64,000 nucleotides of DNA from an uncultured Monoglobus sp. (lineage in GTDB: Bacteria > Bacillota > Clostridia > Monoglobales > Monoglobaceae). Below the pieces are notes generated by a model. That model made no database searches and had not been told where the DNA came from. It worked only from the letters and a program-made list of their open reading frames with translations. Below are positions 1 to 13,402 of this stretch, in pieces. The DNA is taken from contig CANRGH010000003.1 of the NCBI GenBank assembly GCA_947630135.1, positions 1 to 64,000 of the forward strand. Direction: 5' to 3'. Each line of letters begins with the position of its first letter. The first letter of the stretch is position 1. A program made the translations under genes and the position numbers.

Positions 1-1024
1 TTCAACTCACACGCCTCTGCGAGGCGTGACCATACCTTTGTTTACACAAGATAGGGATTTTGTTATTTCAACTCACACGCCTCTGCGAGGCGTGACCTCC
101 GTCCCTCGCGCTATGAGGAAGTTTGTTATTATTTCAACTCACACGCCTCTGCGAGGCGTGACCTGAGCCATTTGATTTGAATAACGATGAACAATTTATT
201 TCAACTCACACGCCTCTGCGAGGCGTGACGGCAACTGCAAGCAGCAGTTTTTCACTCGGCGAATTTCAACTCACACGCCTCTGCGAGGCGTGACCTTCTG
301 TATCGTTGATTTTGAAACGGCAAAGCCTTATTTCAACTCACACGCCTCTGCGAGGCGTGACCAGACACGAAAACAAGGAGCAGGAGCGATTCAAAATTTC
401 AACTCACACGCCTCTGCGAGGCGTGACCCCGGCGACACAAGTCTTTTATATTTTTCATACAATTTCAACTCACACGCCTCTGCGAGGCGTGACATAAGGA
501 TTTATACTATGGCTTCATGTCCAAAACAATTTCAACTCACACGCCTCTGCGAGGCGTGACTTTATCGCGTGGCAGACAATGATGAAGTTGAAAACATTTC
601 AACTCACACGCCTCTGCGAGGCGTGACACTGCATACAGCTTGGAACGGGTACGAACGGCAATATTTCAACTCACACGCCTCTGCGAGGCGTGACGCAATC
701 ATGGCCGGAGGTCAGTCGATTTGGCAATTTCAACTCACACGCCTCTGCGAGGCGTGACAATATGTGGCAAAAAAGCTGAACATCAAGGTTTCAATTTCAA
801 CTCACACGCCTCTGCGAGGCGTGACGCGCCGCACTCGCCGCAAAATAAAATTCCCGACAAATTTCAACTCACACGCCTCTGCGAGGCGTGACAGCAGCAG
901 CTCTTCTGCTGCCGCTCGGCAGGGCCATTTCAACTCACACGCCTCTGCGAGGCGTGACTCAAGGTGAACAATACCTTGATTTTATCCTGCAGATTTCAAC
1001 TCACACGCCTCTGCGAGGCGTGAC
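1..1024 (-). CRISPR. Type I-C CRISPR array, 16 repeats / 15 spacers in window
   Basis: Sixteen copies of a 32-nt repeat are visible, all identical by eye; the first is cut by the window edge and the last is 993-1024. Repeat starts are 65, 131, 198, 263, 330, 396, 462, 529, 596, 663, 727, 794, 861, 927 and 993. Spacers are 32-35 nt. Read on the minus strand the repeat begins GTCACGCC, has an 8-bp stem CACGCCTC/GAGGCGTG with a 3-nt loop, and ends with the 11-nt handle TGAGTTGAAAT. This matches the known type I-C pattern (GTCGC...GTTGAAAT), so crRNAs are read from 1024 towards 1, away from the cas genes. The array continues past the left edge. Short open frames across it are artefacts of the repeat. 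Confidence 0.99.
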
Positions 1025-1168
1025 CCTATATATTGTATAATATACGGATATTGCCTCGCAATATGGCGGACTTTTTTAAAATTTTAACATATTTTTATTG
1101 ATAAATCAAATATTTTTACCGGCGAACCTCATTGGAATTATAGTATTGTTTAAGGTTCGCCGCGCGTG
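1025..1168 (-). promoter_or_regulatory. CRISPR leader with promoter and two inverted repeats
   Basis: This AT-rich stretch lies between the end of cas2 and the leader-proximal repeat. A plausible minus-strand promoter is TTGATT (1104-1109), 17 bp, TAAAAT (1081-1086), with a start near 1074. A perfect inverted repeat ATATTGC-CTC-GCAATAT (1048-1064) sits 24 bp from the first repeat, and GGCGAACCT/AGGTTCGCC (1121-1129 / 1153-1161) forms a second, wider dyad just after cas2. Leaders commonly carry integration anchoring motifs for Cas1-Cas2; assigning the 1048-1064 dyad to that role is inference. The wider dyad may form a structure at the end of the cas transcript. Confidence 0.75.
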
Positions 1169-1459
1169 TTACAATATCAACGCGCCCTCCGGGTCGTAGG
1201 TCGATTTGGCACCTATATGCTCAACGCGTCTTTTCCAATTATTGCCGAGATAGTATATTCTGAGGCTGTCCTTATCGTTGTCAATAATTTTTTCAAGTCT
1301 GTCTTTCAGCTTCAGAAAGGTTGAATAATCAACATCAACCTCAAAAACCGAATTCTGCACACGCTGGCCATAGTTAAGACATTCCTTGGCGACCTTTCTG
1401 AGTCTTCGCTTTCCCGCGGAGTCGATCGTTGACACGTCATAGCTCACAACGCACATCAT
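1169..1459 (-). CDS. cas2: CRISPR-associated endonuclease Cas2
   Basis: A 96-residue protein of normal Cas2 length with the N-terminal beta-strand motif VVSYDVS, whose aspartate is the conserved metal-binding residue of the family. Cas2 dimers bridge two Cas1 dimers in the complex that inserts new spacers. The gene is the last of the cas operon, 12 bp after cas1, and is followed by the leader and array on the same strand, the usual type I-C order. The start has a gene-end-proximal purine-rich RBS. Nothing looks damaged, so adaptation is probably functional. Confidence 0.97.
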   Translation of the reverse strand: MMCVVSYDVSTIDSAGKRRLRKVAKECLNYGQRVQNSVFEVDVDYSTFLKLKDRLEKIIDNDKDSLRIYYLGNNWKRRVEHIGAKSTYDPEGALIL

Positions 1460-1471
1460 AATTTTGCTCTC

Positions 1472-2494
1472 CTATTTTACGATATAGCACGGATATTCCT
1501 CGATTTCGCCGCGGATATATTTCGCGAGCAGCATGCTTTGCGCGTACGGCAAAAGGCCAAGATCTATCTTTTGTTTAAGGTAGGGATGCACAATATCGGT
1601 GCGTTTTTTCTCCTGCCACTTTGAAAGTATCTTCTTTTTGCCGTCAATGTTAAGGAATACCGCTCCGCTGACCTGTGTTTCAAAGTCATCCGCGTTTAAT
1701 ATTTTCAGGTTGATCATAGTCAGAACAAATCGTTCTATAATGCAGCGGCTTTCTTCAACAAGATCACACGCGAGCGAAGCGCGGCCCGGACGAACGGAAT
1801 GATAAAATCCCATATAACTGTCAAGGCCCACGCTTTCAAGCGCTGAGGCATAGTCGTTTGTCCAGATCGTATACAAAAATGACAGAACGGCGTTTACCCT
1901 GTCAAGCGGAGGACGTTTCGTTCTCATTGAGAACTTAAAGTCATTCTTTTGGTGCAGTATCAAGCTGTCAAAAATATCAAAGTAGGCCTTTGCACCCTGC
2001 CCTTCTATCCCGAGAATTTCGTTTATATCTTGGGCTTCATACACGTTTTCTATGTATTGATCAAGCAGCTCGATGCAATGCGAAAGGCTGCCGTCGGAAT
2101 TTATTGACGGATAATCCTTCAGTGTTCGTTTCACGACGCTTCTCGTGTTTGCCATTTTGGCGGCGACCACATTCTGCCGCAGCAGCGCGGGAGGATCCGC
2201 GAATTGCTCAAACTGCGCTTTTCTCAGCAGTATATTGCCGTGCGCCGGCCCGTGAATGCTCGCGAGAAAACGGCCGTGAGGGGATATGAAGCTTATCGGA
2301 ATACCATACTCCGCGCATTTCCCCATTAAAGCGGGCGAGCATCCGAGGTAGCTGAAGCAGTAAACCGCCTCAATGTTTGAAAAAGGAAGTCTGAGCTTAA
2401 TTTCATTATCCTTCCTGCATACGATATTTTCTCCGTCAAGAGTGAGATATATATTCTCATCTGTTATATACAGTGAGTTCAAAAGCTTTCTCAT
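1472..2494 (-). CDS. cas1: CRISPR-associated integrase Cas1 (type I-C)
   Basis: A 340-residue protein, full length for type I-C Cas1. The C-terminal helical domain holds the metal-ligand set: a glutamate in ILGIEGQGAK, the histidine in MGFYHSVRPG and the acidic residues in LACDLVEESR. Cas1 with Cas2 catalyses spacer integration at the leader end of the array. The start codon overlaps the end of cas4 by 4 nt (ATGA type), indicating translational coupling. The N-terminal beta-rich domain (about residues 1-80) and the long helical domain are both present and uninterrupted. Confidence 0.98.
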   Translation of the reverse strand: MRKLLNSLYITDENIYLTLDGENIVCRKDNEIKLRLPFSNIEAVYCFSYLGCSPALMGKCAEYGIPISFISPHGRFLASIHGPAHGNILLRKAQFEQFADPPALLRQNVVAAKMANTRSVVKRTLKDYPSINSDGSLSHCIELLDQYIENVYEAQDINEILGIEGQGAKAYFDIFDSLILHQKNDFKFSMRTKRPPLDRVNAVLSFLYTIWTNDYASALESVGLDSYMGFYHSVRPGRASLACDLVEESRCIIERFVLTMINLKILNADDFETQVSGAVFLNIDGKKKILSKWQEKKRTDIVHPYLKQKIDLGLLPYAQSMLLAKYIRGEIEEYPCYIVK

Positions 2495-3138
2495 ACGCGC
2501 TCCTCCTTAACAAGATTACGAACAGTGTATTTTTTATTCTGAGGAATACAAACATTTTTCATTGAGCAGCCGCTGCACTTCTGCCCTTTGACCCGATCCG
2601 GTATCTTTCCGCTTTCAAGAACTTCGTTCATCTCAAAAAGCAGCTTTTGCAGCAAAGAATAGTATTTGTCATACTCCTCGTTAAGATCGAGCTTTACCCT
2701 GCGGTGCGTGTCGCCATAGTATATATATCCCGTGCTTTTGCATTTCCATATATGATCCGCGCAAAGCTTTTGCGCAAAGACCTGTATCGCGTCGGTTTCG
2801 TTTACTGTTCCGGAAGCGGGGCGGCGGGGCTTATACTCAACGATATTAACATTGAAATTGTCGTCGAGCTGCTCTATGTAAGCCCCGGTTTTGCTTCTTA
2901 TGAATTCAACACAGTCCGCTACGCCGTACAGATCGAGCTCGTCGTGATAAAGCGAGACCGAGCTGAGCTCGATTTTTTCTTTTGAATGACGCTCATGCAT
3001 ACCCGAATGGACGCGCTCGTGCATGATGTTCGCCTTCACGACAAAAGCGTTTTCCGCCCAGTCTTGGTTTAACTCGAGCAGCCCGAAGCGGCGCGGACAG
3101 TACATATAGTGTTGAATAGCGCGAATATTTATCATCAC
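2491..3138 (-). CDS. cas4: CRISPR-associated exonuclease Cas4 (RecB-like)
   Basis: A 215-residue RecB-family nuclease. The N-terminal cysteine lies in YMYCPRRF. The C-terminal cluster CSGCSMKNVC with the earlier cysteine fits the four-cysteine iron-sulfur site of Cas4. Nuclease residues are seen in YGVADCVEF and NIVEYKPRRP (the D...EYK signature) and the QVFAQKLCA motif. Cas4 trims prespacers and helps select those with a correct PAM, working with Cas1-Cas2. It overlaps cas7c upstream and cas1 downstream by 4 nt each, consistent with a coupled adaptation block. Confidence 0.97.
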   Translation of the reverse strand: MMINIRAIQHYMYCPRRFGLLELNQDWAENAFVVKANIMHERVHSGMHERHSKEKIELSSVSLYHDELDLYGVADCVEFIRSKTGAYIEQLDDNFNVNIVEYKPRRPASGTVNETDAIQVFAQKLCADHIWKCKSTGYIYYGDTHRRVKLDLNEEYDKYYSLLQKLLFEMNEVLESGKIPDRVKGQKCSGCSMKNVCIPQNKKYTVRNLVKEERV

Positions 3139-3998
3139 AGCTTTTCGATAAGAGTTACGCCCTCGGGCATATCTTTGTCAACGGCGATCTCGTAATCCTC
3201 ATAATTTCTCGGGCACTCAATTCCGGCTTTCTTCTGGATCGTTATCTTATCAAACAAAACATGCGACGGAGCGTTTCCGAGTGGGCTTTCATGCTTGAAT
3301 ATCAGGAGCTTTCTCATGCACATTTTGCCGCGCGCCGCGCTGTGATCATGCTCGAACATATTGATTATTGCAGTCCAGAGCAGCTCAAGATCATCTTCCG
3401 ATAAACTCGTGACCTTCTGCGCGAGCATTGCCGACACATAACCCTCGGCCTTGTAGAGGCCATAAGGTACAATGTTCTTTTTTCCCATTTCGGTCTCGCC
3501 GCTTTTCATCCTGTCATTTGTTGTTTTTGCCTGTCTTGTGATCGTAATATCCTGAGTATATACCGGATCAACGCTTCTGGCGAAGTTGATCTGGACCGGG
3601 CCGCGAACGATGCCGCACGGATCTTCGCCTGTGTTCATTACCGCGCCGAACGCGCGGACATCAAAGTAGTTTTTGCACATATAATCGCGCGCCTGTCTGA
3701 CATCATCGGCGTTTTTGCCCTTTTGTCCTGTCTTAAGGCCTTCGGCTTCATATGCTTCGGTAAATTTGGAATTGAGCGACCTATCCGATTTTATCAGTAT
3801 ATTGTACCCCGGCTCGCCTTCCTTGCACAGCTCGACAAAATTACGTATTTTTCTCTTTAAGCAAACATCTGTGACTATGCCGTGCGTTGTTTCCGGATCA
3901 ACTCTCGGCATATTGCCCGCGTCCGGATCACCGTTGGGATTTCCGTTTTCAACGTCAAAAATCATTATAAACTCGTATCTGTTATTAATTGCTTTCAT
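3135..3998 (-). CDS. cas7c: Cascade backbone protein Cas7c (Csd2)
   Basis: A 287-residue Csd2-type Cas7. The N-terminus RYEFIMIFDVENGNPNGDPD is the signature glycine/asparagine-rich strand and loop of the family. Copies of this protein polymerise along the crRNA spacer and form the Cascade backbone. I place the start at the ATG at 3998, just 3' of the cas8c stop and behind AAGGAGAG; a longer in-frame reading to 4055 would run into cas8c and has no RBS of its own. It lies between cas8c and cas4, the standard I-C position. Confidence 0.97.
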   Translation of the reverse strand: MKAINNRYEFIMIFDVENGNPNGDPDAGNMPRVDPETTHGIVTDVCLKRKIRNFVELCKEGEPGYNILIKSDRSLNSKFTEAYEAEGLKTGQKGKNADDVRQARDYMCKNYFDVRAFGAVMNTGEDPCGIVRGPVQINFARSVDPVYTQDITITRQAKTTNDRMKSGETEMGKKNIVPYGLYKAEGYVSAMLAQKVTSLSEDDLELLWTAIINMFEHDHSAARGKMCMRKLLIFKHESPLGNAPSHVLFDKITIQKKAGIECPRNYEDYEIAVDKDMPEGVTLIEKL

Positions 3999-3999
3999 T

Positions 4000-5814
4000 T
4001 TACATCTCTCCTTCTGTATTATTATTTTCGTTATTTTTATCTTTGAAAAAATCATGCCGCTGCTGATAGTAACCTATTATAAATCTGCCTTGGTCCTGCA
4101 GTGACAGCGTTGACGGAAATTCGGTTCCGAGCATGTCAATGATCTCGCCCATAAGTTTATTGTAATATATCGCACTTCCTGTTTTTTTGCCGGACTTACA
4201 TTTTTTAAGATGATTTTGAGCCAATTCTATCAGTCTCGGTAATACCAACATAGGTCTCGAGCACGCTGAAGAAAAATATGAATCCTTTATTGTTTTGTTA
4301 AGATCAGTATCCGCGGCGATCTTCTGGATGCGCTCGAGGACCGCGAACAGCCTTCCGCATAAATATGCTTCGTTTGTGTTTGTTTTGTCAAGTGCCACTT
4401 TAATTTCCTCCTCTTTTTGGTTTAATCTTAAATTTCTGTTTATATAAGCCTTTAATATTCCTGCCCGTACATAATTTATTATTTTATCTGTTTTGACTCT
4501 TCTGACTATTATTTCAAGCAGAGTATCGGGGTACCGCGTTCCGTTCAGTATAGCTCCGAAAACCGCCGCTATGACTGGTGCGGGCGTTTTTTCGTTTTGG
4601 TTTTTCGGTGACTTCATTTCATAAAGCATGCGCCAAATTGAAATTTGTTTTTTGGAGCCGTCGATCAGCATATCAGCCTGATGCCTGGCGGTGTTGGTAA
4701 AGATATCTCCGTATTTGTTGCGGTATATAAATTTCTGCGCGATCCTGGAGCTGTTCGGCGCAAGCCCCGTCACATAGAACATAACGTTTTCATCAAAATC
4801 CGCGGTCGATAAATCAACTTTTCTACCTTCGCTCAATGCATTTACGGCATTTGCGATCATTTCATTTACCTCAGACGCATCGGCTTTATCATCTTCAAGT
4901 CCGAACAAACTCATAAACGCATCGGTTTCCGCGCTGTCATCATTTGACATAGCCCAGAATACGACGGTTAGTTCCTCCAGATACATATGATGTTTCGGTT
5001 CTCTTATGAGAATATTCAGTGCTTCGGTGTAACGTTTCATAACATCTATGGATATCGAGCCGTTATATGACTGTTTTTTCCCGTATGATTCAAAAGCCGA
5101 ATTTTTAAAGCTCACAAGAAGTCCGCCCGAGGCTTGTCCGCCGAGAATTCCTTTTATTTTATCATGTATTCTTGCCATTTCAGACGGTTTGCCCGTCACC
5201 GCACATATGCCGTCAAATTTTTGATCGCCGTTGTTTGTGCTTGTTTTGACCTTTTGCATTATTTCACCGTTTTCGGAATGCAGGGTAATTTCCGGATGTC
5301 CGTCAAGGCAAAAGATAAAATACGCGCCGGAATATTCTTTGGCAATGTTCAAAAGATGCGAATTTTCTGTCTCATTCTCGGGCGCCCAGTTTTTGATAAA
5401 ATTCCTGTATGCCGTCACAATATCGGATGTCATATCCTCGGTGAATTGCAGATTATCTTCGGCAAAGCACTTGTGTGATTTTTTCGCCTTATCGGTCCTG
5501 TCCTCGGGAGTGAATATGTTTGATTGCTTATCATAATTCAAACCGAAAATATACAGCGGGCGATGCTCTATTATGTTCGCGTCGATCCCGGATTTCTGGG
5601 TCCGCTCGGGCAAAACTGCCTCAATGGGCATAAGCTTTGTTTTGCCGTTTTTATCGGGCGGCCCCTCTTTGCGCACATCTATAATATCGCTTATTGTTCC
5701 GTCGGGTCTAAGCATAATCATATGAGTGATTTTTTGCGATGAAGTTCCCGGCTGCGCGACCTCTCCCGCGTCGGCTAAAATATCGTAATAATCATTGAGC
5801 GCACTTATCAGCAT
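4000..5814 (-). CDS. cas8c: Cascade large subunit Cas8c (Csd1)
   Basis: A 604-residue Csd1-type large subunit that recognises the PAM and stabilises the R-loop in type I-C Cascade. The start is the ATG at 5814, giving MLISALNDYYDI, which overlaps the cas5c stop region by 7 nt; the reading frame is open further upstream but there it only shadows cas5c. The protein carries typical Csd1 segments such as the N-terminal small domain and the long helical C-terminal half. In many I-C systems an internal start within cas8c also makes a small subunit (Cas11c), so an internal RBS near the 3' third is worth looking for. Confidence 0.95.
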   Translation of the reverse strand: MLISALNDYYDILADAGEVAQPGTSSQKITHMIMLRPDGTISDIIDVRKEGPPDKNGKTKLMPIEAVLPERTQKSGIDANIIEHRPLYIFGLNYDKQSNIFTPEDRTDKAKKSHKCFAEDNLQFTEDMTSDIVTAYRNFIKNWAPENETENSHLLNIAKEYSGAYFIFCLDGHPEITLHSENGEIMQKVKTSTNNGDQKFDGICAVTGKPSEMARIHDKIKGILGGQASGGLLVSFKNSAFESYGKKQSYNGSISIDVMKRYTEALNILIREPKHHMYLEELTVVFWAMSNDDSAETDAFMSLFGLEDDKADASEVNEMIANAVNALSEGRKVDLSTADFDENVMFYVTGLAPNSSRIAQKFIYRNKYGDIFTNTARHQADMLIDGSKKQISIWRMLYEMKSPKNQNEKTPAPVIAAVFGAILNGTRYPDTLLEIIVRRVKTDKIINYVRAGILKAYINRNLRLNQKEEEIKVALDKTNTNEAYLCGRLFAVLERIQKIAADTDLNKTIKDSYFSSACSRPMLVLPRLIELAQNHLKKCKSGKKTGSAIYYNKLMGEIIDMLGTEFPSTLSLQDQGRFIIGYYQQRHDFFKDKNNENNNTEGEM

Positions 5815-6530
5815 TTCATCATCTCCTTGTATTTCGCGATGTCTATCACTCCGTCGATCATGTGTGGGCGGTAAAATACCGCGTCGGCCTTGTCGGAAAA
5901 CTTGCGGGCTTCCCAATCGTTGTCTTTCGGAATGCCGCCGTCTCGGAATTTCATGTGATAGAGCATAAAGCCGAGATCGGTGTCGCCTTTTAATTTGTCG
6001 GATACCCGTTCTGTCGGGAACTCGTCCACAAGCTCGATTTTTTTTACCGCGAACTCGCTGCATCCCAAAACCGGCTGTCTGAAATGCTGACCCTTTTTTA
6101 ACCTGCGGAGCATGATGTTATAGTGCTTTTCCTCGCTTTCGTCGTCATGCTCGCTCCTGATCCCGGTGAGTTCAAAATGAAATTCCACGCCGTACAGAAC
6201 GTCTTTAAGGACCATGCTGCCGCGCTGGCTAATGCTATCCTTGGTATAGATCTCCGCTCGCGGCTTGCCGTCCTTCATCTGCTTTTTCACATTTGAGAAA
6301 CTCACCTTGTCCTTAACCTCGTTGCGGCGAATGTTGACAAACTTAATAGGATTGAATACTATTATCTTGTCCACCACGATCCGCAGCGCAGGCTTCCAAT
6401 AAATGCTTTTAATAAGCCCTTCCATAGCTCCGGGCGTCGGCACGTCATAGCTCACCCTTTCGGTTTTCATCTCCGGCCGCGTGAAACACGCGTAATCGCC
6501 GCTTACCATAATTTTAAAACCGTATCCCAT
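5808..6530 (-). CDS. cas5c: crRNA-processing endoribonuclease Cas5c (Cas5d)
   Basis: A 240-residue Cas5d protein. In type I-C, which lacks Cas6, this protein cuts pre-crRNA at the base of the repeat stem and stays on the 11-nt 5' handle. The N-terminal RAMP strand (VSGDYACFTRPE) and the segment IYWKPALRIVVDKI followed by NIRRNEV are characteristic. Its predicted product handle TGAGTTGAAAT is seen in every repeat of the array and exactly in one repeat of the mini-CRISPR near 8918. It starts 11 bp after cas3 and overlaps cas8c by 7 nt. Confidence 0.96.
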   Translation of the reverse strand: MGYGFKIMVSGDYACFTRPEMKTERVSYDVPTPGAMEGLIKSIYWKPALRIVVDKIIVFNPIKFVNIRRNEVKDKVSFSNVKKQMKDGKPRAEIYTKDSISQRGSMVLKDVLYGVEFHFELTGIRSEHDDESEEKHYNIMLRRLKKGQHFRQPVLGCSEFAVKKIELVDEFPTERVSDKLKGDTDLGFMLYHMKFRDGGIPKDNDWEARKFSDKADAVFYRPHMIDGVIDIAKYKEMMKC

Positions 6531-6541
6531 ATCGTCCTCCT

Positions 6542-8719
6542 TTATATGATTAAATTAAATTCTTTTTTTATATCAAGCCCGGTCTCCTTGCTGTAATATT
6601 CGGGAGCGGAAAGCATATAAATATTGCCGTATAAATTTTGTACTGTTCCGCTCTCGACCATATAATCAAATTCATATTTGTTGACCGAAGCGCAGTATCG
6701 CTGCAGCTTTCTCATTGCCGAGCGTGCGCCGTATTTTAAGGATTTTATAAGCTCGGCGTTTTCCTCGCACGGGATAACTATGCCGACAGTTTCCTTTTCG
6801 ATAAACTTAAACCTCTGCGCGTAAGACCTGAAAGGAATCCCGGACACTCTCATATCTCCGCCCATCATCTCGGTTATTGAGTTGGTTTCGATCTCTTTGT
6901 CCGAAACGGCGAATATTCTGTCATAATACTCCTGCACCGCCTTTTGGGAAGAAATGTTTTCAAATTCCTCAAAAAGCTTTCTTGTTATGTTTGCTTTGAC
7001 TGCGATCTCTCTGTGCAAAGGTCCGAGTTCAAACACAAATACGTTTCCGGAGTTCATTCTGCCCTCGCGGTTGCAGCGCCCGCCGGATTGCACTATGTTA
7101 TCAAGCCCCGCGATCTCGCGGAATACCGATTTGAAGTCAAGGTCCACGCCCGCCTCGATAAGCGAGGTCGATATCACGACAGTTTTTCTTCCGTTATCAA
7201 GGCTCGCTCGTATTCTGCTTATGGTATCAGACCTGTCAAGAGGCGTCATGTAAGTTGATAAGTGGTATACCTCGTGATCTGCCGAGGTTTTGCATATATT
7301 GTAAAGTTCTCTCGCCGTGCTTTTTTTGTTGACTATCACCAGTGCGTTTTCCTGCTCGAGCGCTTTTTCCGCTATGGAGCCTAAATCGTTTTGCCCGATA
7401 TATTGATATTTGCATTTATCGAAAATTCCGAAAAGACGCTTGTCCTTAACCGCGTATTCAATCGTGCTTTGCGGAATAAATTTTTCGGCAAAGCGTGTGT
7501 AGTCGGGCATTGTCGCAGACATCAGAATAGCGGTGGAGTGAAGATACTTTGTGATATATCCTATCCCGCGCAGACACGGCTGGATATATTCAACGGGCAG
7601 AGCGTGTATCTCGTCGAAAACAAGCACGCTCTCGGCGAGATTATGCAGCTTTCTGAGCCTGCTGCTCTTGTTGTGGTAGAGCGACTCGAAAAACTGCACG
7701 TTGGTGGTTATTATCAAAGGCGCGTCATAGTTTTCGCAAGCCTTTTTTAATTTCTCGTTCGTTATTCCGCTCTCGTCGGCTGCCTTCTCGGGATCGTCAA
7801 AGTCATAATTTGAATGGTGCTGCAAGACAGGCAGAGAGCTTCCGAATATATTTTCAAAGACTTCCGCCGTCTGCTCAATTATGCTTGTGTACGGCATAAT
7901 GTAAACGATCCTCTTTTTGTCTTTTTTGATCGCCAGCTGCAGAGCCGCTTTTATGCTGCAGAGAGTTTTTCCGCTGCCGGTGGGCATGTCGAGCATGTAT
8001 ATATCAGCGTCGCCGTTTTCCACGCAGTCATATACTTGGCTTTGAATGACGCTCCGCACATTTTGCAGAGCGGTTTCGCATTTAAATCCGTCAAGCTTCG
8101 CGCAGACCTTTTTATATGCGGCGATAATATCACCGTCAAGGCCACGTTCGGTATCGGGAGCGCAAAATCGCTCGGTGTCTATGAAGTCGGCGTCAGTGAG
8201 GCAGGAGTAAAAATACCTCGTAAAAAATGAGTAAGCCTCAATCCTCTCCTTATTATCCGGCAATTTTTTTAACTCTTCAAACAAAAAATCGTCCGGGAAC
8301 CAATCGCCGATTTCTTTATCAAATTCGGAGCAGTCATATAGCTCTCTTTTCAACATGCCGTTCAGAGTCGACTGTTCGGGATTGTCGTTTCGCACGCCTC
8401 CGTCCGGCAATCCCGCGTGATGACCGCAAATGCAATAGGCAAGCATATCGGCATATGATGTTTTGCAGTTATTTTTAATGCGCGATGCTCCGAAACGCGC
8501 GTGCTCGACCTTTTGACCCGAGCCCCTGATATATCTCTGAAACTTGGGCGAGTACTTCCCCAAGTCGTGATAAAGGCCGCAGCAGCGCGCAATATCCTTA
8601 AACTCGGTCACTGCGTTTTCGGCGCTTAGCTCCGCTGTTTGTTCAAGATGTTCCTTAACGCTCTGCACCCTGCCGTCATCTGCCGTGTGCGCTATGTAAG
8701 TATTGGAATCTTCAGACAT
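6542..8719 (-). CDS. cas3: CRISPR-associated helicase-nuclease Cas3 (HD fused)
   Basis: A 725-residue single-chain Cas3, the translocating helicase-nuclease recruited by target-bound Cascade. The HD nuclease domain shows HD at residues 51-52 and a His pair at 100-101. The SF2 helicase shows Walker A MPTGSGKT (245-252), DEIH in place of DEAH (369-372) and SAT (401-403). It is the first gene of the operon. Its ATG is preceded by AGAGGAG. The predicted mRNA leader is only about 41 nt, and it contains the match to the spacer of the nearby mini-CRISPR. Confidence 0.98.
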   Translation of the reverse strand: MSEDSNTYIAHTADDGRVQSVKEHLEQTAELSAENAVTEFKDIARCCGLYHDLGKYSPKFQRYIRGSGQKVEHARFGASRIKNNCKTSYADMLAYCICGHHAGLPDGGVRNDNPEQSTLNGMLKRELYDCSEFDKEIGDWFPDDFLFEELKKLPDNKERIEAYSFFTRYFYSCLTDADFIDTERFCAPDTERGLDGDIIAAYKKVCAKLDGFKCETALQNVRSVIQSQVYDCVENGDADIYMLDMPTGSGKTLCSIKAALQLAIKKDKKRIVYIMPYTSIIEQTAEVFENIFGSSLPVLQHHSNYDFDDPEKAADESGITNEKLKKACENYDAPLIITTNVQFFESLYHNKSSRLRKLHNLAESVLVFDEIHALPVEYIQPCLRGIGYITKYLHSTAILMSATMPDYTRFAEKFIPQSTIEYAVKDKRLFGIFDKCKYQYIGQNDLGSIAEKALEQENALVIVNKKSTARELYNICKTSADHEVYHLSTYMTPLDRSDTISRIRASLDNGRKTVVISTSLIEAGVDLDFKSVFREIAGLDNIVQSGGRCNREGRMNSGNVFVFELGPLHREIAVKANITRKLFEEFENISSQKAVQEYYDRIFAVSDKEIETNSITEMMGGDMRVSGIPFRSYAQRFKFIEKETVGIVIPCEENAELIKSLKYGARSAMRKLQRYCASVNKYEFDYMVESGTVQNLYGNIYMLSAPEYYSKETGLDIKKEFNLII

Positions 8720-8733
8720 TGTTTATTTCTCCT

Positions 8734-8753
8734 CTCTTTAGAAATTAATATGT
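8734..8753 (+). promoter_or_regulatory. Predicted target of the mini-CRISPR guide in the cas3 leader
   Basis: The plus strand reads CTC at 8734-8736 and then TTTAGAAATTA at 8737-8747. The mini-CRISPR spacer (minus strand, 8917 to 8897) starts with the same 11 bases, differs at position 12, matches again at 13-17 (8749-8753) and differs from 18 on. Position 12 is one of the every-sixth bases that type I effectors flip out and do not read. CTC, from memory, is an accepted weaker I-C PAM besides TTC. The site lies about +8 to +24 from the predicted cas3 start and abuts the Shine-Dalgarno sequence. Confidence 0.8.
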
Positions 8754-8766
8754 AAAATGTAAATTA

Positions 8767-8795
8767 ATAGTAGCACAGTTATTATATTATGTCAA
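8767..8795 (-). promoter_or_regulatory. Promoter of the cas operon
   Basis: Minus-strand TTGACA (8790-8795), 17-bp spacer, TACTAT (8767-8772). Predicted start near 8760, giving a 41-nt leader to the cas3 ATG. No other promoter is obvious inside the tightly overlapping operon. Confidence 0.85.
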
Positions 8796-8860
8796 GTCCT
8801 TTTTTTAAAAAATTTTATTATATTTCCCATAGGTCTGTTTTACTTGATAAATAACATGAA

Positions 8861-8966
8861 ATAAAAACTCACGCGCCCCCTTTGTGGGGACGCGACAACA
8901 ACATAATAATTTCTAAAATTTCAACTCACGCGCTTTTTAAAGCGCGGCTGATCCTTTTCGGGATCA
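8861..8966 (-). ncRNA. Mini-CRISPR: candidate Cas-regulating guide RNA (CreR-like)
   Basis: Read on the minus strand this holds a 5' hairpin TGATCC/GGATCA (8949-8966), degenerate repeat A (8948-8918), a 21-nt spacer (8917-8897) and degenerate repeat B (8896-8861). Repeat A keeps the exact 11-nt handle TGAGTTGAAAT and an 8-bp stem CGCGCTTT/AAAGCGCG whose sequence differs from the array stem, so the stem is conserved by compensation. Repeat B has a 9-bp stem CGCGTCCCC/GGGGGCGCG with one G-U pair and a changed handle TGAGTTTTTAT, which makes it look like a terminator. The spacer matches the cas3 leader. Processing by Cas5c and loading into Cascade are inferred. A simple decayed array is less likely, because the stems, the handle, the promoter and the target match are all kept. 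Confidence 0.85.
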
Positions 8967-8971
8967 ATTAT

Positions 8972-9000
8972 ATTATATCATAATCGCGCAAAAGTGTCAA
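8972..9000 (-). promoter_or_regulatory. Perfect consensus promoter of the mini-CRISPR
   Basis: Minus-strand TTGACA (8995-9000), exactly 17 bp, TATAAT (8972-8977). Both boxes match SigA consensus perfectly, stronger than the cas3 promoter itself. The predicted start is at 8966-8964, so the RNA would open with the small hairpin and enter degenerate repeat A within about 20 nt. Confidence 0.9.
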
Positions 9001-9090
9001 CACGGTTTACATGTCGCATTTTTGATTTTATTATAACATATTTTATTTACAAAAAAATGTACATGTTTTCTCGAGACATAACAGCGCGGT

Positions 9091-9112
9091 GCCGGGACAA
9101 AAACGCCCCGGC
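9091..9112. other. Stem-loop without a U-tract
   Basis: GCCGGG (9091-9096) pairs with CCCGGC (9107-9112) across a 10-nt A-rich loop. It lies between the mini-CRISPR promoter and the small gene at 9155. Neither strand has a good T-run after it, so it is at best a weak terminator. I see no gene in 9001-9154. Confidence 0.4.
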
Positions 9113-9154
9113 CTCGCATCGGTTTGAGAAGAAAAATTTTAATATAGGAGATTT

Positions 9155-9385
9155 TTATTTATAAAATGTAATTTTTTCACCGTTTGACAGGGTGCAGGTG
9201 TGCTGATTGAGTCCTTGCTGCGGTTTGCTCACATACGGCTTGTTGGTTCTGACGTCTCTGAGACCGGTGTTTGACGGGTATGAGTCATAGCCTTTGCTTA
9301 TCGCCCATTGCCGCATCTCTATATCCTGATTAGTCTCTTTAATTAATTGATAACCGAAATAGATTATCGCGATAAGTATCATCAT
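9155..9385 (-). CDS. Small membrane-anchored protein of unknown function
   Basis: A 76-residue open frame behind a good RBS (GGGAGGAAT) at the right distance from the tandem ATG codons at 9380-9385. Residues 2-14 are hydrophobic (MILIAIIYFGYQL) and probably one N-terminal membrane segment; the rest is polar with the C-terminal stretch CTLSNGEKITFYK. I do not recognise the family. It lies on the same strand as the cas operon and the mini-CRISPR, 155 bp upstream of the mini-CRISPR promoter. No intrinsic terminator is clear after it. It could be a regulator or toxin-like peptide, but nothing in the sequence shows that. Confidence 0.6.
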   Translation of the reverse strand: MMILIAIIYFGYQLIKETNQDIEMRQWAISKGYDSYPSNTGLRDVRTNKPYVSKPQQGLNQHTCTLSNGEKITFYK

Positions 9386-9467
9386 TTTTATTCCTCCCGT
9401 GAATTGTTTTTTGTTTATGATATAAGTATATCATGGGCGGTGTGCAAAAAATTGCGCCGGGAAAATA

Positions 9468-9496
9468 TTGATTAAAAATAATTTTTATGGTATAAT
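9468..9496 (+). promoter_or_regulatory. Promoter of the acetyltransferase gene
   Basis: TTGATT (9468-9473), 17 bp, TATAAT (9491-9496). The predicted start is about 18-20 bp upstream of the TTG start codon, and the RBS GGAGG lies at 9508-9512, so the leader is very short. Confidence 0.85.
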
Positions 9497-9520
9497 CGCT
9501 ATAATACGGAGGCGATAAAA

Positions 9521-10108
9521 TTGACAGAAAAAGAAAAAGCGGCGCTGGGATACTTATACAACGCCAATTATGACAAGGAAATTCTGGCTGACATCAGCCG
9601 CTGCAATGATATATGCTTTGAGTTTAACAAGCTCCGCCCGTCCGATCGCGGCGCGCAGGAAAAGCTGCTTCGGCAAATTTTCGGCAAGGCGGGCGAAAGC
9701 CCGATCGTGAACGCGCCGTTTTGGTGTGATTACGGATACAACACAACGGTCGGGGACCATTTTTTTGCCAATCGCAACTGCCAGATCCTGGACGGCGGCA
9801 AGATTACGTTTGGCGATAATGTTTTTATCGCGCCCAACTGCTGCTTCACAACGGCGGAGCATGCCCTCGACCCCGATCAGAGGAAAGAGGGGCTTGAGGT
9901 CGCCCTTCCGATAACCGTCGGCAGCAACGTCTGGATAGGCGCGGGCTCAACGATCCTGGGCGGCGTCACGATCGGCGACAACTCGGTCATCGGCGCGGGC
10001 TCTGTGGTGACAAAAGACGTTCCATCGGGAGTTATCGCGGTCGGCGTTCCGTGCCGCGTTATGCGTGAGATCACCGAGGCCGACAAAGACCGTTACCCGC
10101 ACAGATAA
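9521..10108 (+). CDS. Maltose/galactoside O-acetyltransferase family protein
   Basis: A 195-residue left-handed beta-helix acetyltransferase of the Maa/LacA type. The N-terminal helical cap (residues 1-55) resembles the maltose acetyltransferase cap domain. Hexapeptide repeats follow (VGSNVWIGAGSTILGGVTIG and neighbours), and the catalytic histidine is H114 in TTAEHALDP. Such enzymes move acetyl groups from acetyl-CoA to sugar hydroxyls; the real substrate is not readable from sequence. It starts with TTG, chosen because GGAGG sits 8 bp upstream. Its GC is higher than that of the island genes that follow. Confidence 0.9.
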   Translation: MTEKEKAALGYLYNANYDKEILADISRCNDICFEFNKLRPSDRGAQEKLLRQIFGKAGESPIVNAPFWCDYGYNTTVGDHFFANRNCQILDGGKITFGDNVFIAPNCCFTTAEHALDPDQRKEGLEVALPITVGSNVWIGAGSTILGGVTIGDNSVIGAGSVVTKDVPSGVIAVGVPCRVMREITEADKDRYPHR

Positions 10109-10193
10109 TGATAAAAAACGGATTGAACGGCATAGTAGGTTTTGTGATATAATACGAAAAGTACAAATCGGAATTTGGAGGGGCGAAAAAATA

Positions 10194-10892
10194 ATGAGAA
10201 AAGTAATCGGTGTCATGCCGCTTTATGACGATGAAAAAAAGAGCTACTGGATGCTGCCGGGATACATGAAAATGTTGGAGGCGGAAAACGCTATACCATT
10301 AATGCTGCCTCTTACTTCCAAAACAAAGGAGTTAGATTATTTTCTTGAAATATGCGGTGGATTTCTGCTGACCGGCGGCCATGATGTGTCTCCGACCGTT
10401 TATCATGCCGAGCGCAAACCGTGGTGCGGCCCATGCTGCAAATTACGGGATGAAATGGAGCGATATATCTTAACGAATGTAGTAGAAATGGATAAATCTG
10501 TGTTAGGTATCTGCCGGGGTATTCAATTTATGAATTCTCTCTATGGCGGGACTTTATACCAAGATTTAGCAACAGAGAATAACAGTTGTGTCAACCATCA
10601 CATGAAGCCGCCGTACAACAGGGCGGCACATCAAGTCACAATACTAACCGATACGCCACTCTATGATATTTTAGGCAAGGAGCAAATGGGAGTAAACAGC
10701 TATCACCACCAAGCGATCAGAAAGCTGTCGCCTGCATTTAATAAAATGGCAATATCGGAAGACGGCTTAATTGAAAGTATATATATGCCGTCTCATAAGT
10801 TTATAGTGGGTGTTCAATGGCATCCTGAATTTTCATATGATGTTGATGAAGACAGTAAAAAGCTGATAAATGCTTTCGTAGCTTCGATTTAA
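10194..10892 (+). CDS. Class I glutamine amidotransferase-like (gamma-glutamyl-GABA hydrolase family)
   Basis: A 232-residue peptidase C26 / PuuD-type protein. The nucleophile is C107 in LGICRGIQF and the rest of the triad is H210 and E212 in VQWHPEF. Family members cleave gamma-glutamyl amides such as gamma-glutamyl-GABA; the substrate here is unknown and no polyamine genes are nearby. The start is the ATG at 10194 behind GGAGGGG; the frame is open upstream but lacks an RBS. A TATAAT box lies at 10148-10153, and the leader contains the motif AAATCGGAATTTGGAGG shared with other units of this island. Confidence 0.9.
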   Translation: MRKVIGVMPLYDDEKKSYWMLPGYMKMLEAENAIPLMLPLTSKTKELDYFLEICGGFLLTGGHDVSPTVYHAERKPWCGPCCKLRDEMERYILTNVVEMDKSVLGICRGIQFMNSLYGGTLYQDLATENNSCVNHHMKPPYNRAAHQVTILTDTPLYDILGKEQMGVNSYHHQAIRKLSPAFNKMAISEDGLIESIYMPSHKFIVGVQWHPEFSYDVDEDSKKLINAFVASI

Positions 10893-10937
10893 CAATTTCC
10901 CGTTTGTAGAGCGGATAAAAACTGAACATCACAATCC

Positions 10938-10964
10938 GGAGCAATCGCAAAGTTGCTCTTTTTT
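10938..10964 (+). terminator. Terminator, island copy 1
   Basis: GAGCAA (10939-10944) pairs with TTGCTC (10953-10958), then six T. This is the first of five near-identical GAGCAATCGA...TTGCTC terminators in the 10.9-15.3 kb island. Confidence 0.85.
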
Positions 10965-10972
10965 GCGAAGTA

Positions 10973-11015
10973 TTGATTTTTTTTCGGCGGGCATGATATG
11001 ATTATTCCGTAATCA
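10973..11015 (+). promoter_or_regulatory. Promoter with palindromic operator, island copy 1
   Basis: TTGATT (10973-10978), 18 bp, TATGAT (10997-11002), overlapped by the dyad TGATTA-TTCCG-TAATCA (10999-11015). Two more copies with 17-bp spacing and longer arms occur at 11790 and 14344. Confidence 0.75.
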
Positions 11016-11062
11016 AACAGAACATTAACTTGGTGTTTGCGTAAAGGAGTGGATGTAATATT

Positions 11063-11698
11063 ATGTATTATTATCATATGACAGCGTTAAACAATCTTTG
11101 TTCTATTGCGGCACAGGGATTGGTGCCTAAAAATGAAACTAACGGCAAACTGATCGGAGATGAAAAAATTAAGGTATTTTTCTCTGAAGGATTTGAGGGC
11201 GCGATTGCTCTATATGTGGATTTTGATATTGTATTTCGTAGAATACGAAAAGAGCAGATGAATGCGGCAGATGAGTCCGTAAAAAAGAAAGTTCTGAAAT
11301 CGAACAATCTCTCTGATTTTTTGGGCGAGGGAGTTTATTTACGGTTTGACGGAACAGGAATCAAGAATGAAAGAAATTTTGAAAACGGCTGTACCGATAT
11401 GACGATCATGCCCGAAAAAATAAGTGTATGTGTCTTGCGAAACGAACATGATAATTCGATTATATTCTCAAGATTTGAGATAATTAAATACATGATGGCG
11501 AAAACTAAGCCCGAACAGATAAAATACTATGGAGCAAGCTATAAAAACTCGCCCGGTTTTTTAGAAGCAACAAGACGAATACAAGAAAAAGTGAAAAACT
11601 ATTATAAAGACCATCAAACAGAGATCGCACAATATGATAATTGCGTTTTCATATTGGATTTTATTGACTTAAAAGACTTTGTTGATAAATTCTTATAA
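11063..11698 (+). CDS. Hypothetical protein, possibly ADP-ribosyltransferase-like fold
   Basis: A 211-residue soluble protein behind AAAGGAGTGG. I do not recognise a named family. The N-terminus (YYYHMTALNNLCSIAAQGLVP) resembles in pattern the His-start and NL-x-SI-x-x-x-GL segment of several ADP-ribosyltransferase-fold proteins, but the match is loose and the claim is weak. A later motif is YFxF-like, FFSEGFEGAIALYVDF. The gene is AT-rich, a single-gene unit with its own promoter and terminator, which suggests recent transfer. There is no partner antitoxin next to it. Confidence 0.6.
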   Translation: MYYYHMTALNNLCSIAAQGLVPKNETNGKLIGDEKIKVFFSEGFEGAIALYVDFDIVFRRIRKEQMNAADESVKKKVLKSNNLSDFLGEGVYLRFDGTGIKNERNFENGCTDMTIMPEKISVCVLRNEHDNSIIFSRFEIIKYMMAKTKPEQIKYYGASYKNSPGFLEATRRIQEKVKNYYKDHQTEIAQYDNCVFILDFIDLKDFVDKFL

Positions 11699-11751
11699 AA
11701 CAATAATTCAGATCCTCATTTGACAAGCAAAAATTTGAATACCGCGATCGA

Positions 11752-11778
11752 GAGCAATCGAAAATCGGTTGCTCTTTT
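11752..11778 (+). terminator. Terminator, island copy 2
   Basis: GAGCAA (11752-11757) pairs with TTGCTC (11769-11774), then TTTT. It is preceded by ATACCGCGATCGA, which recurs exactly before the terminator at 15250. Confidence 0.85.
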
Positions 11779-11789
11779 GTTCCGCCGTG

Positions 11790-11831
11790 TTGACTTTTTG
11801 CGGTTGGTATGGTATGATTATTTCATAATCA
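11790..11831 (+). promoter_or_regulatory. Promoter with palindromic operator, island copy 2
   Basis: TTGACT (11790-11795), 17 bp, TATGAT (11813-11818), overlapped by the perfect dyad TGATTAT-TTC-ATAATCA (11815-11831). The motif GATAAATCGGGATTT follows near 11840. The transcript to the ATG at 12048 would have a leader of over 200 nt, in which I see no clear gene. Confidence 0.8.
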
Positions 11832-12047
11832 AAAAGAACGATAAATCGGGATTTGAATTTGTCAAAATCTTAGATTGTTACTACCCGATATAGAGTGATA
11901 TTATAATCCTCCAAAAGCCTTGAAACTAAAGGATTTATCGCAGTTTACTCACCTTGTTCCCTTACATGGTTTCACACGAATTTACCTTCGCCCTGCATCT
12001 AATAAGGGCGAATACAAGGGAAAATTGCAGAAAGTGCAGGAAAGAAA

Positions 12048-12857: not shown

Positions 12858-13291
12858 ATGATAAGAGAAATTGCAGAAAACGATTTTGACGGTCTTTTGT
12901 CGCTTTATATGCAGCTGCACGATAATCCTTTCCCAGATAAGGATAACAGAATTATAGCAATATGGAATAATATTCTTAATGACAAAAATCATCATATAAT
13001 AGTTGCGAATGAAAACGGTATTTTGGTATCCTCTTGTGTATGTGTTATTATTCCGAATTTGACACGAGGACAACGTCCATACGCTCTGATTGAAAACGTT
13101 ATTACCGACAAAAAATACAGAAAAAGGGTTATGCGACAGCTTGTTTGAATTTTGCAAAAGAAATTGCCAGGCGCGAAAATTGCTACAAGATGATGCTGCT
13201 GACCGGTTCAAAAAATACAGACACCCTATATTTTTATGAACAGGCGGGATATAACAAAAATGATAAGACGGCTTTTATACAATGGCTGTAA
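12858..13291 (+). pseudogene. GNAT acetyltransferase broken by a single frameshift
   Basis: Frame 1 gives residues up to KKYRK then reads RVMRQLV and stops at 13148. Adding one A in the run at about 13121-13126 restores the acetyl-CoA motif YRKKGYATACLNFAKEIARR and then a good GNAT C-terminus (MMLLTGSKNTDTLYFYEQAGY) to a TAA at 13289-13291. The break therefore sits exactly in the CoA-binding loop. It is either a true one-base deletion, a phase-variable A-run or a sequencing error. The RBS (ACGGAGG) and leader are intact. Confidence 0.85.
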
Positions 13292-13332
13292 TTTCCCGTT
13301 TGACGAGCAGATAAAACAAAATACGACAAAAA

Positions 13333-13358
13333 GAGCAATCGACAGGTTGCTCCTTTTT
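13333..13358 (+). terminator. Terminator, island copy 3
   Basis: GAGCAA (13333-13338) pairs with TTGCTC (13347-13352), then C and five T. The stretch before it, ATTTCCCGTTTGACGAGCAG, is nearly the same as the one after the amidotransferase gene at 10895. Confidence 0.85.
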
Positions 13359-13402
13359 GCTGTACGCTTACGCTCCGTCCGAATTCTTGAACCGTAGCTG
13401 TA

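Follow-up and report, generated by a model that had tools for sequence, protein, structure and literature searches.

Shmakov et al. (NAR, 2023) reportedly described standalone CRISPR repeat pairs, mostly of type I, with spacers partly complementary to cas promoters, and Liu et al. (Cell Host Microbe, 2023) are said to have tested CreR RNAs of types I-B, I-E and V-A. The mini-array presented here resembles those standalone repeats in being a repeat pair with a spacer that matches a cas promoter region.

According to a review (PMC12737573), CreR RNAs repressing cas promoters have been described for other subtypes. They consist of two degenerate repeats and a short spacer beside cas genes, the spacer being partly complementary, next to a PAM, to the cas promoter region, and repression relaxes when crRNAs or anti-CRISPRs occupy Cascade. 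Our element shares this organization, and no conserved ORF for a coupled toxin is seen; it differs from CreR RNAs as presented there in belonging to type I-C, where processing would fall to Cas5c and the repeats must fold, and do. CreA of the CreTA module is also a minimal CRISPR; both of its repeats are degenerate, and its guide of limited complementarity uses Cascade as repressor (PMC9458426). The first CreA repeat has diverged more than the second, which here is true of the stem of repeat A, but our target is cas3 and not a toxin gene. Racr elements are solitary repeat mimics acting as phage RNA anti-CRISPRs; in contrast to these viral inhibitors of CRISPR-Cas (PMC10651486), our element is chromosomal, linked to cas3 and equipped with a guide, and no copies of the mini-array were found in viral contigs with the exact pattern used.

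Judged from its sequence, the element bears the signature of a CreR-type RNA that would autorepress the cas genes of a type I-C system. No description of a CreR-type RNA in type I-C was found in the literature searched. The element would place RNA-guided cas autorepression in this subtype, with an unusually clean evolutionary record.

Type I-C locus and mini-CRISPR anatomy

The window (the whole analysed stretch of 64,000 nucleotides from an uncultured Monoglobus sp., assembly size 2.35 Mb) carries a complete type I-C locus on its minus strand, with cas3, cas5c, cas8c, cas7c, cas4, cas1 and cas2 assigned by PADLOC profiles. Best hits were Cas3c, Cas5c, Cas8c, Cas7b/Cas7c, Cas4c, Cas1c and Cas2c. 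These seven genes and 32-nt repeats with an 11-nt handle, the features that define type I-C, are all present in the window. No Rfam families were found in window positions 1-12000. Close relatives with the same locus are uncultured Monoglobus or Clostridia from "Lapin" metagenomes, which we read as rabbit, the window's bacterium being read as a Monoglobus-like inhabitant of rabbit gut.

1-1024, minus strand: main CRISPR array with repeat GTCACGCCTCGCAGAGGCGTGTGAGTTGAAAT, running off the contig end
1169-6530, minus strand: cas5c, cas8c, cas7c, cas4, cas1 and cas2 (PADLOC profiles)
6542-8719, minus strand: cas3, first gene of the operon and presumed target of repression; Cas3c, E 1.6e-193 (PADLOC)
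8767-8795, minus strand: promoter of the cas3 operon, TTGACA-17-TACTAT, 10/12 consensus

The original prediction had described two degenerate repeats, A and B. Both were recovered as repeat-like hairpins on the minus strand upstream of cas3, at 8949-8918 and 8896-8861, respectively, and they are the two repeats of one mini-CRISPR, not independent hairpins. That prediction had overlooked the 21-nt spacer and the fact that it matches the cas3 leader, as well as the sigma-70 promoter (12/12) that precedes A, and likewise the function of the element. Reading along the minus strand, the order is promoter, repeat A, spacer and repeat B. Such a mini-CRISPR, with degenerate repeats and in linkage with the cas operon, is characteristic of CreR.

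8972-9000, minus strand: mini-CRISPR promoter, TTGACA-17-TATAAT, sigma-70, 12/12 consensus
8950-8965, minus strand: small hairpin GATCC-CGAAAA-GGATC (RNAfold), where the transcript is predicted to begin
8918-8949, minus strand: repeat A, arms 8946-8939 and 8936-8929, handle TGAGTTGAAAT at 8928-8918
8897-8917, minus strand: mini-spacer (guide) TTTAGAAATTATTATGTTGTT, 21 nt, between repeats A and B
8861-8896, minus strand: repeat B, 9-bp stem at 8894-8872, degraded handle TGAGTTTTTAT

We compared 13 loci, the window included. A promoter of 11-12/12 consensus occupies the equivalent place in all 13. The small hairpin also occurs at the same place in orthologues of the window's clade (GATCC...GGATC and variants). 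Further upstream of the mini-array, the minus strand at 9155-9385 contains an ORF of 76 amino acids with a hydrophobic N-terminus.

The exact 11-nt handle attributed to repeat A was confirmed, TGAGTTGAAAT being identical to the handle of the main array. Pairing over 8-9 bp in all three repeats holds for the array repeat (8 bp) and repeat B (9 bp including one G-U), and not for repeat A, whose stem has 7 bp and a 4-nt loop, as an eighth pair would leave a loop of 2 nt (RNAfold). The 3' arm of A is paired with probability 0.98, versus 0.49 in shuffled leaders. The labour seems to be divided between the repeats, A retaining the handle and B the stem.

Repeat B might be taken for an intrinsic terminator that does not serve Cas5c as a substrate. 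In the window it is followed by TGAGTTTTTA, and it scores terminator-like. On the other hand, B retains a full handle without a T run in loci L055 and L056, and almost every locus has TGAGT after B. A terminator in place of a substrate is thus unlikely, and the two roles of B may coexist.

Guide, target and flanking motif

The mini-spacer finds its counterpart in the leader of cas3:

8737-8757, plus strand: protospacer; 16/17 of its first positions (8737-8753) match the guide TTTAGAAATTATTATGTTGTT, with a mismatch at position 12
8734-8736, plus strand: candidate PAM CTC, opposite the cas3 Shine-Dalgarno region; CTC or TTC in 12/13 loci

In the window, the target begins shortly beyond the inferred transcription start of the cas3 promoter, with the CTC facing the Shine-Dalgarno region. 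In orthologous loci, targets overlie the -10 element or the first transcribed bases; in L052 it is the PAM-distal part of the target that covers the -10 element. Both cas3 leaders and mini-spacers vary between genomes, yet in 12 of the 13 loci the mini-spacer matches the cas3 leader of its own genome, each time beside CTC or TTC. The element thereby shows, conserved in orthologues, the flanked partial complementarity to the cas promoter or leader that is expected of CreR RNAs. As to the motif itself, the literature searched yielded no report of CTC functioning as a PAM in type I-C, and a PAM search with four main-array spacers gave no exact protospacers in viral contigs.

The guide register was set beforehand by the handle and was not fitted. 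With the core defined as positions 1-17 except 6 and 12, guide and target agree at 149 of 150 positions in 10 distinct loci, and at least 12 core substitutions, counted by eye, are present in both guide and target. When spacers and targets were randomly re-paired, 149 matches were never reached in 100000 permutations (mean 124, maximum 145). The nominal binomial value of 1e-12 ignores relatedness and, like the other nominal statistics, is inflated because the loci are related and AT-rich. Taken singly, the weakest locus has a 17-position score that was reached in 1.9% of shuffles. As a control, 283 main-array spacers taken from these loci were compared with the 13 leaders: among 3679 comparisons, the best core match beside CTC or TTC was 12/15, and none reached 13/15 or more. 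Mini-spacers score 14-15/15 in 12/13 loci.

Mismatches are not scattered. Eight of those within positions 1-17 fall at position 6, six at position 12 and one at position 15, so that 14/15 are at 6 or 12; position 18 of the guide matches in 0/10 loci. In Cascade every sixth crRNA base is flipped out (PMC5904413), and positions 6 and 12 are the flipped-out bases of type I Cascade. This rule is therefore readable from natural sequences, in which guide and target change together and mismatches recur only every sixth base. Guide base 6 is always A, and the target has A there in only 2/10 loci. That mismatches at the flipped-out positions 6, 12 and 18 are selected, not merely tolerated, strikes us as doubtful. 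If it were true, the mini-guide would be tuned to stop the R-loop before Cas3 recruitment or primed adaptation, and the self-target would be repressed without ever being cut or acquired.

The same pairing could in principle be that of an antisense small RNA, which would bind the leader of the cas3 mRNA and, independently of Cascade, prevent its translation. The guide is indeed complementary to the mRNA strand in 12/12 matching loci, and the PAM faces the Shine-Dalgarno region in the window's clade. However, neither mismatches at every sixth position nor a constant CTC/TTC flank would be expected from RNA-RNA pairing, and the target in L052 reaches the -10 element, which is untranscribed. We regard an antisense RNA as very improbable.

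Still less probability attaches to an addiction module of the CreTA kind, in which the guide would repress a toxin and the match to cas3 would be secondary. The anatomy is the same, two degenerate repeats flanking a short spacer; the conserved target, however, is the cas3 leader in every clade and not a toxin promoter. Nor is there a conserved ORF between mini-array and cas3; an RNA toxin retains a small probability. Apart from the spacer's own locus, the window contains no second site with a seed match of more than 7 nt to the mini-spacer.

Maintenance of the stems

The original prediction had held that the stems of array repeat, A and B share almost no bases in their inner part. This was overstated, since array and A share 5/7 pairs and array and B 5/8. 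Counted from the stem base, array and A show 2 compensated differences in 7 pairs, array and B show 2 compensated differences and one G-U in 8 pairs, and A and B have 4/7 pairs in common. Divergence within the locus of the window amounts to a handful of paired substitutions and not to wholesale replacement.

Random decay with broken stems, which was to be expected in orthologues had selection been absent, is not seen. In the window's clade, 41/42 cells of stem A are paired over six pairs; its variable pairs are pair 4 (G-C, G-U, A-U) and pair 6 (C-G, U-A). In stem B, 87/88 cells are paired among 11 distinct sequences, with pair 5 (C-G, U-G, U-A) and pair 2 (G-C, A-U) variable; when cells were counted from an alignment in which L045 replaced G021, 88/88 were paired. 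Sliding the partner column by one abolishes pairing in both stems. Cells changed on both sides number 4 in stem A and 4 in stem B, and shuffling reached the observed covariation in 16/500 trials with A and in 25/500 with B. In these genomes the stem of the main array hardly varies, so the divergence of A and B is independent of it.

Loci L052-L056, from five Clostridia that are more distant, have the mini-array in inverted orientation, divergent from cas3. The 5' half of A is no longer repeat-like there; nevertheless, the 3' arm finds a pairing partner further upstream, as in CGTGCT/AGCACG (L052), CGTGCTT/AAGTACG (L053) and CGTGTT/AACACG (L054). Pairing probabilities are 0.89-0.99, which shuffled leaders reach in 0.3-3%, and the loop measures about 38-50 nt in 4/5 of these loci.

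Selection on structure, as originally proposed, is therefore supported in that stems are kept by paired changes. Covariation, though genuine, is modest, and given the relatedness of the sequences it supports such selection without proving it.

A neutral relic, i.e. a decaying remnant of an old array whose stems persist only through recent shared ancestry, is hardly credible. Partly degraded handles and stems, the truncated spacer of G021 and an array-like intermediate in L056 (see below) would fit it. Against it stand the consensus promoter in 13/13 loci, guide-target coevolution across two clades, 128/130 paired stem cells and the upstream arms that pair with A in L052-L056.

Haloarchaeal creA repeats have no conserved hairpin and no structural constraint (PMC9458426), whereas the window repeats keep their fold. 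In contrast to haloarchaeal CreTA, degenerate regulatory repeats would thus keep the fold where the processing enzyme, Cas5c, needs a hairpin. The changed stems had also been proposed to prevent recombination with the main array, an effect for which experiments on CreTA repeats offer a precedent (PMC9458426).

Proposed mechanism of cas autorepression

Anatomy, promoter, guide-target coevolution, the CTC/TTC flank, the 6-nt mismatch period and stem maintenance, as described here, argue for a CreR-type element: very probably, the mini-CRISPR yields one crRNA-like guide that Cascade uses for negative feedback on the cas operon. For the individual steps, namely processing, loading, repression and release under competition from crRNAs or anti-CRISPRs, we infer the following course.

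The mini-CRISPR would be transcribed from its own strong promoter, and Cas5c would cleave both hairpins at their base, so that the 5' handle comes from A and the 3' end from B. The resulting RNA would start with UGAGUUGAAAUUUUAG. Cas5d/Cas5c is known to cut the hairpin base, to recognise the hairpin and the 3' single strand and to leave an 11-nt 5' handle (PMC3890593), and Cas5c and Cas7 clamp this handle (PMC7684278). By analogy with known Cas5d biology (PMC3890593), the stems probably serve Cas5c processing. As judged from sequence, these putative Cas5c substrates retain hairpin structure and handle. Since Cas5c needs a hairpin, degenerate stems would stay paired; since the hairpin is recognised and the handle clamped, A would keep the handle and a minimal stem, and B would keep the stem and could lose its handle (TGAGTTTTTAT).

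The short guide would then load into I-C Cascade and pair, next to CTC or TTC, with about 17 bases of the cas3 leader, too few for destruction by Cas3. In Xanthomonas, I-C killing requires at least 27 matched bases and PAM TTC (PMC8406640); a match of 17 bases should therefore permit binding but not self-destruction. Cascade of E. coli represses less strongly if the PAM-distal end is unpaired (PMC5904413); for repression by 17 bp we therefore rely on the CreA/CreR precedent. Cascade sitting on the -10 or start-site region would block transcription of cas3-cas5c-cas8c-cas7c-cas4-cas1-cas2, and repression would relax once crRNAs or anti-CRISPRs draw Cascade away. Selection would hold guide-target pairing and repeat folding, the repeats otherwise drifting from the array repeat.

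Distribution and origin

A model (R1) built from mini-array elements scores them at 80-93 bits, the truncated copy of G021 at 39 bits and main-array units below 48 bits. Among 60 related genomes, strong R1 hits are confined to those also carrying this I-C locus.

The sole non-matching locus of the 13 is that of G021 (L050), where the mini-array at 5502-5556 is truncated in the spacer, with promoter and both stems intact. The usual cas3 promoter and leader target are missing, and no alternative target for the truncated spacer was found with the pattern used. This is consistent with guide and target having been lost together.

The origin of the element is suggested by L056. Its region at about 1000-1150, which lies upstream of cas3 and separate from the main array, holds a three-repeat intermediate in which degenerate A and B precede a 36-nt spacer of the normal kind and an array-type repeat. 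This spacer and repeat make an ordinary array the most likely source of the mini-CRISPR.

Two further observations concern repeats. In L057 (RUG409), a possible single degenerate repeat, CAACG-GTAGG-CGTTG, lies upstream of cas3 and is followed by TGAGTAGAAAT, with no convincing leader match by eye. In the window, dispersed imperfect intergenic repeats are found at 10894-11039, 11730-11855 and 13290-13360. They contain a GAGCAATCG...GTTGCTC hairpin followed by T-rich sequence and possibly represent a repeated terminator-like element.
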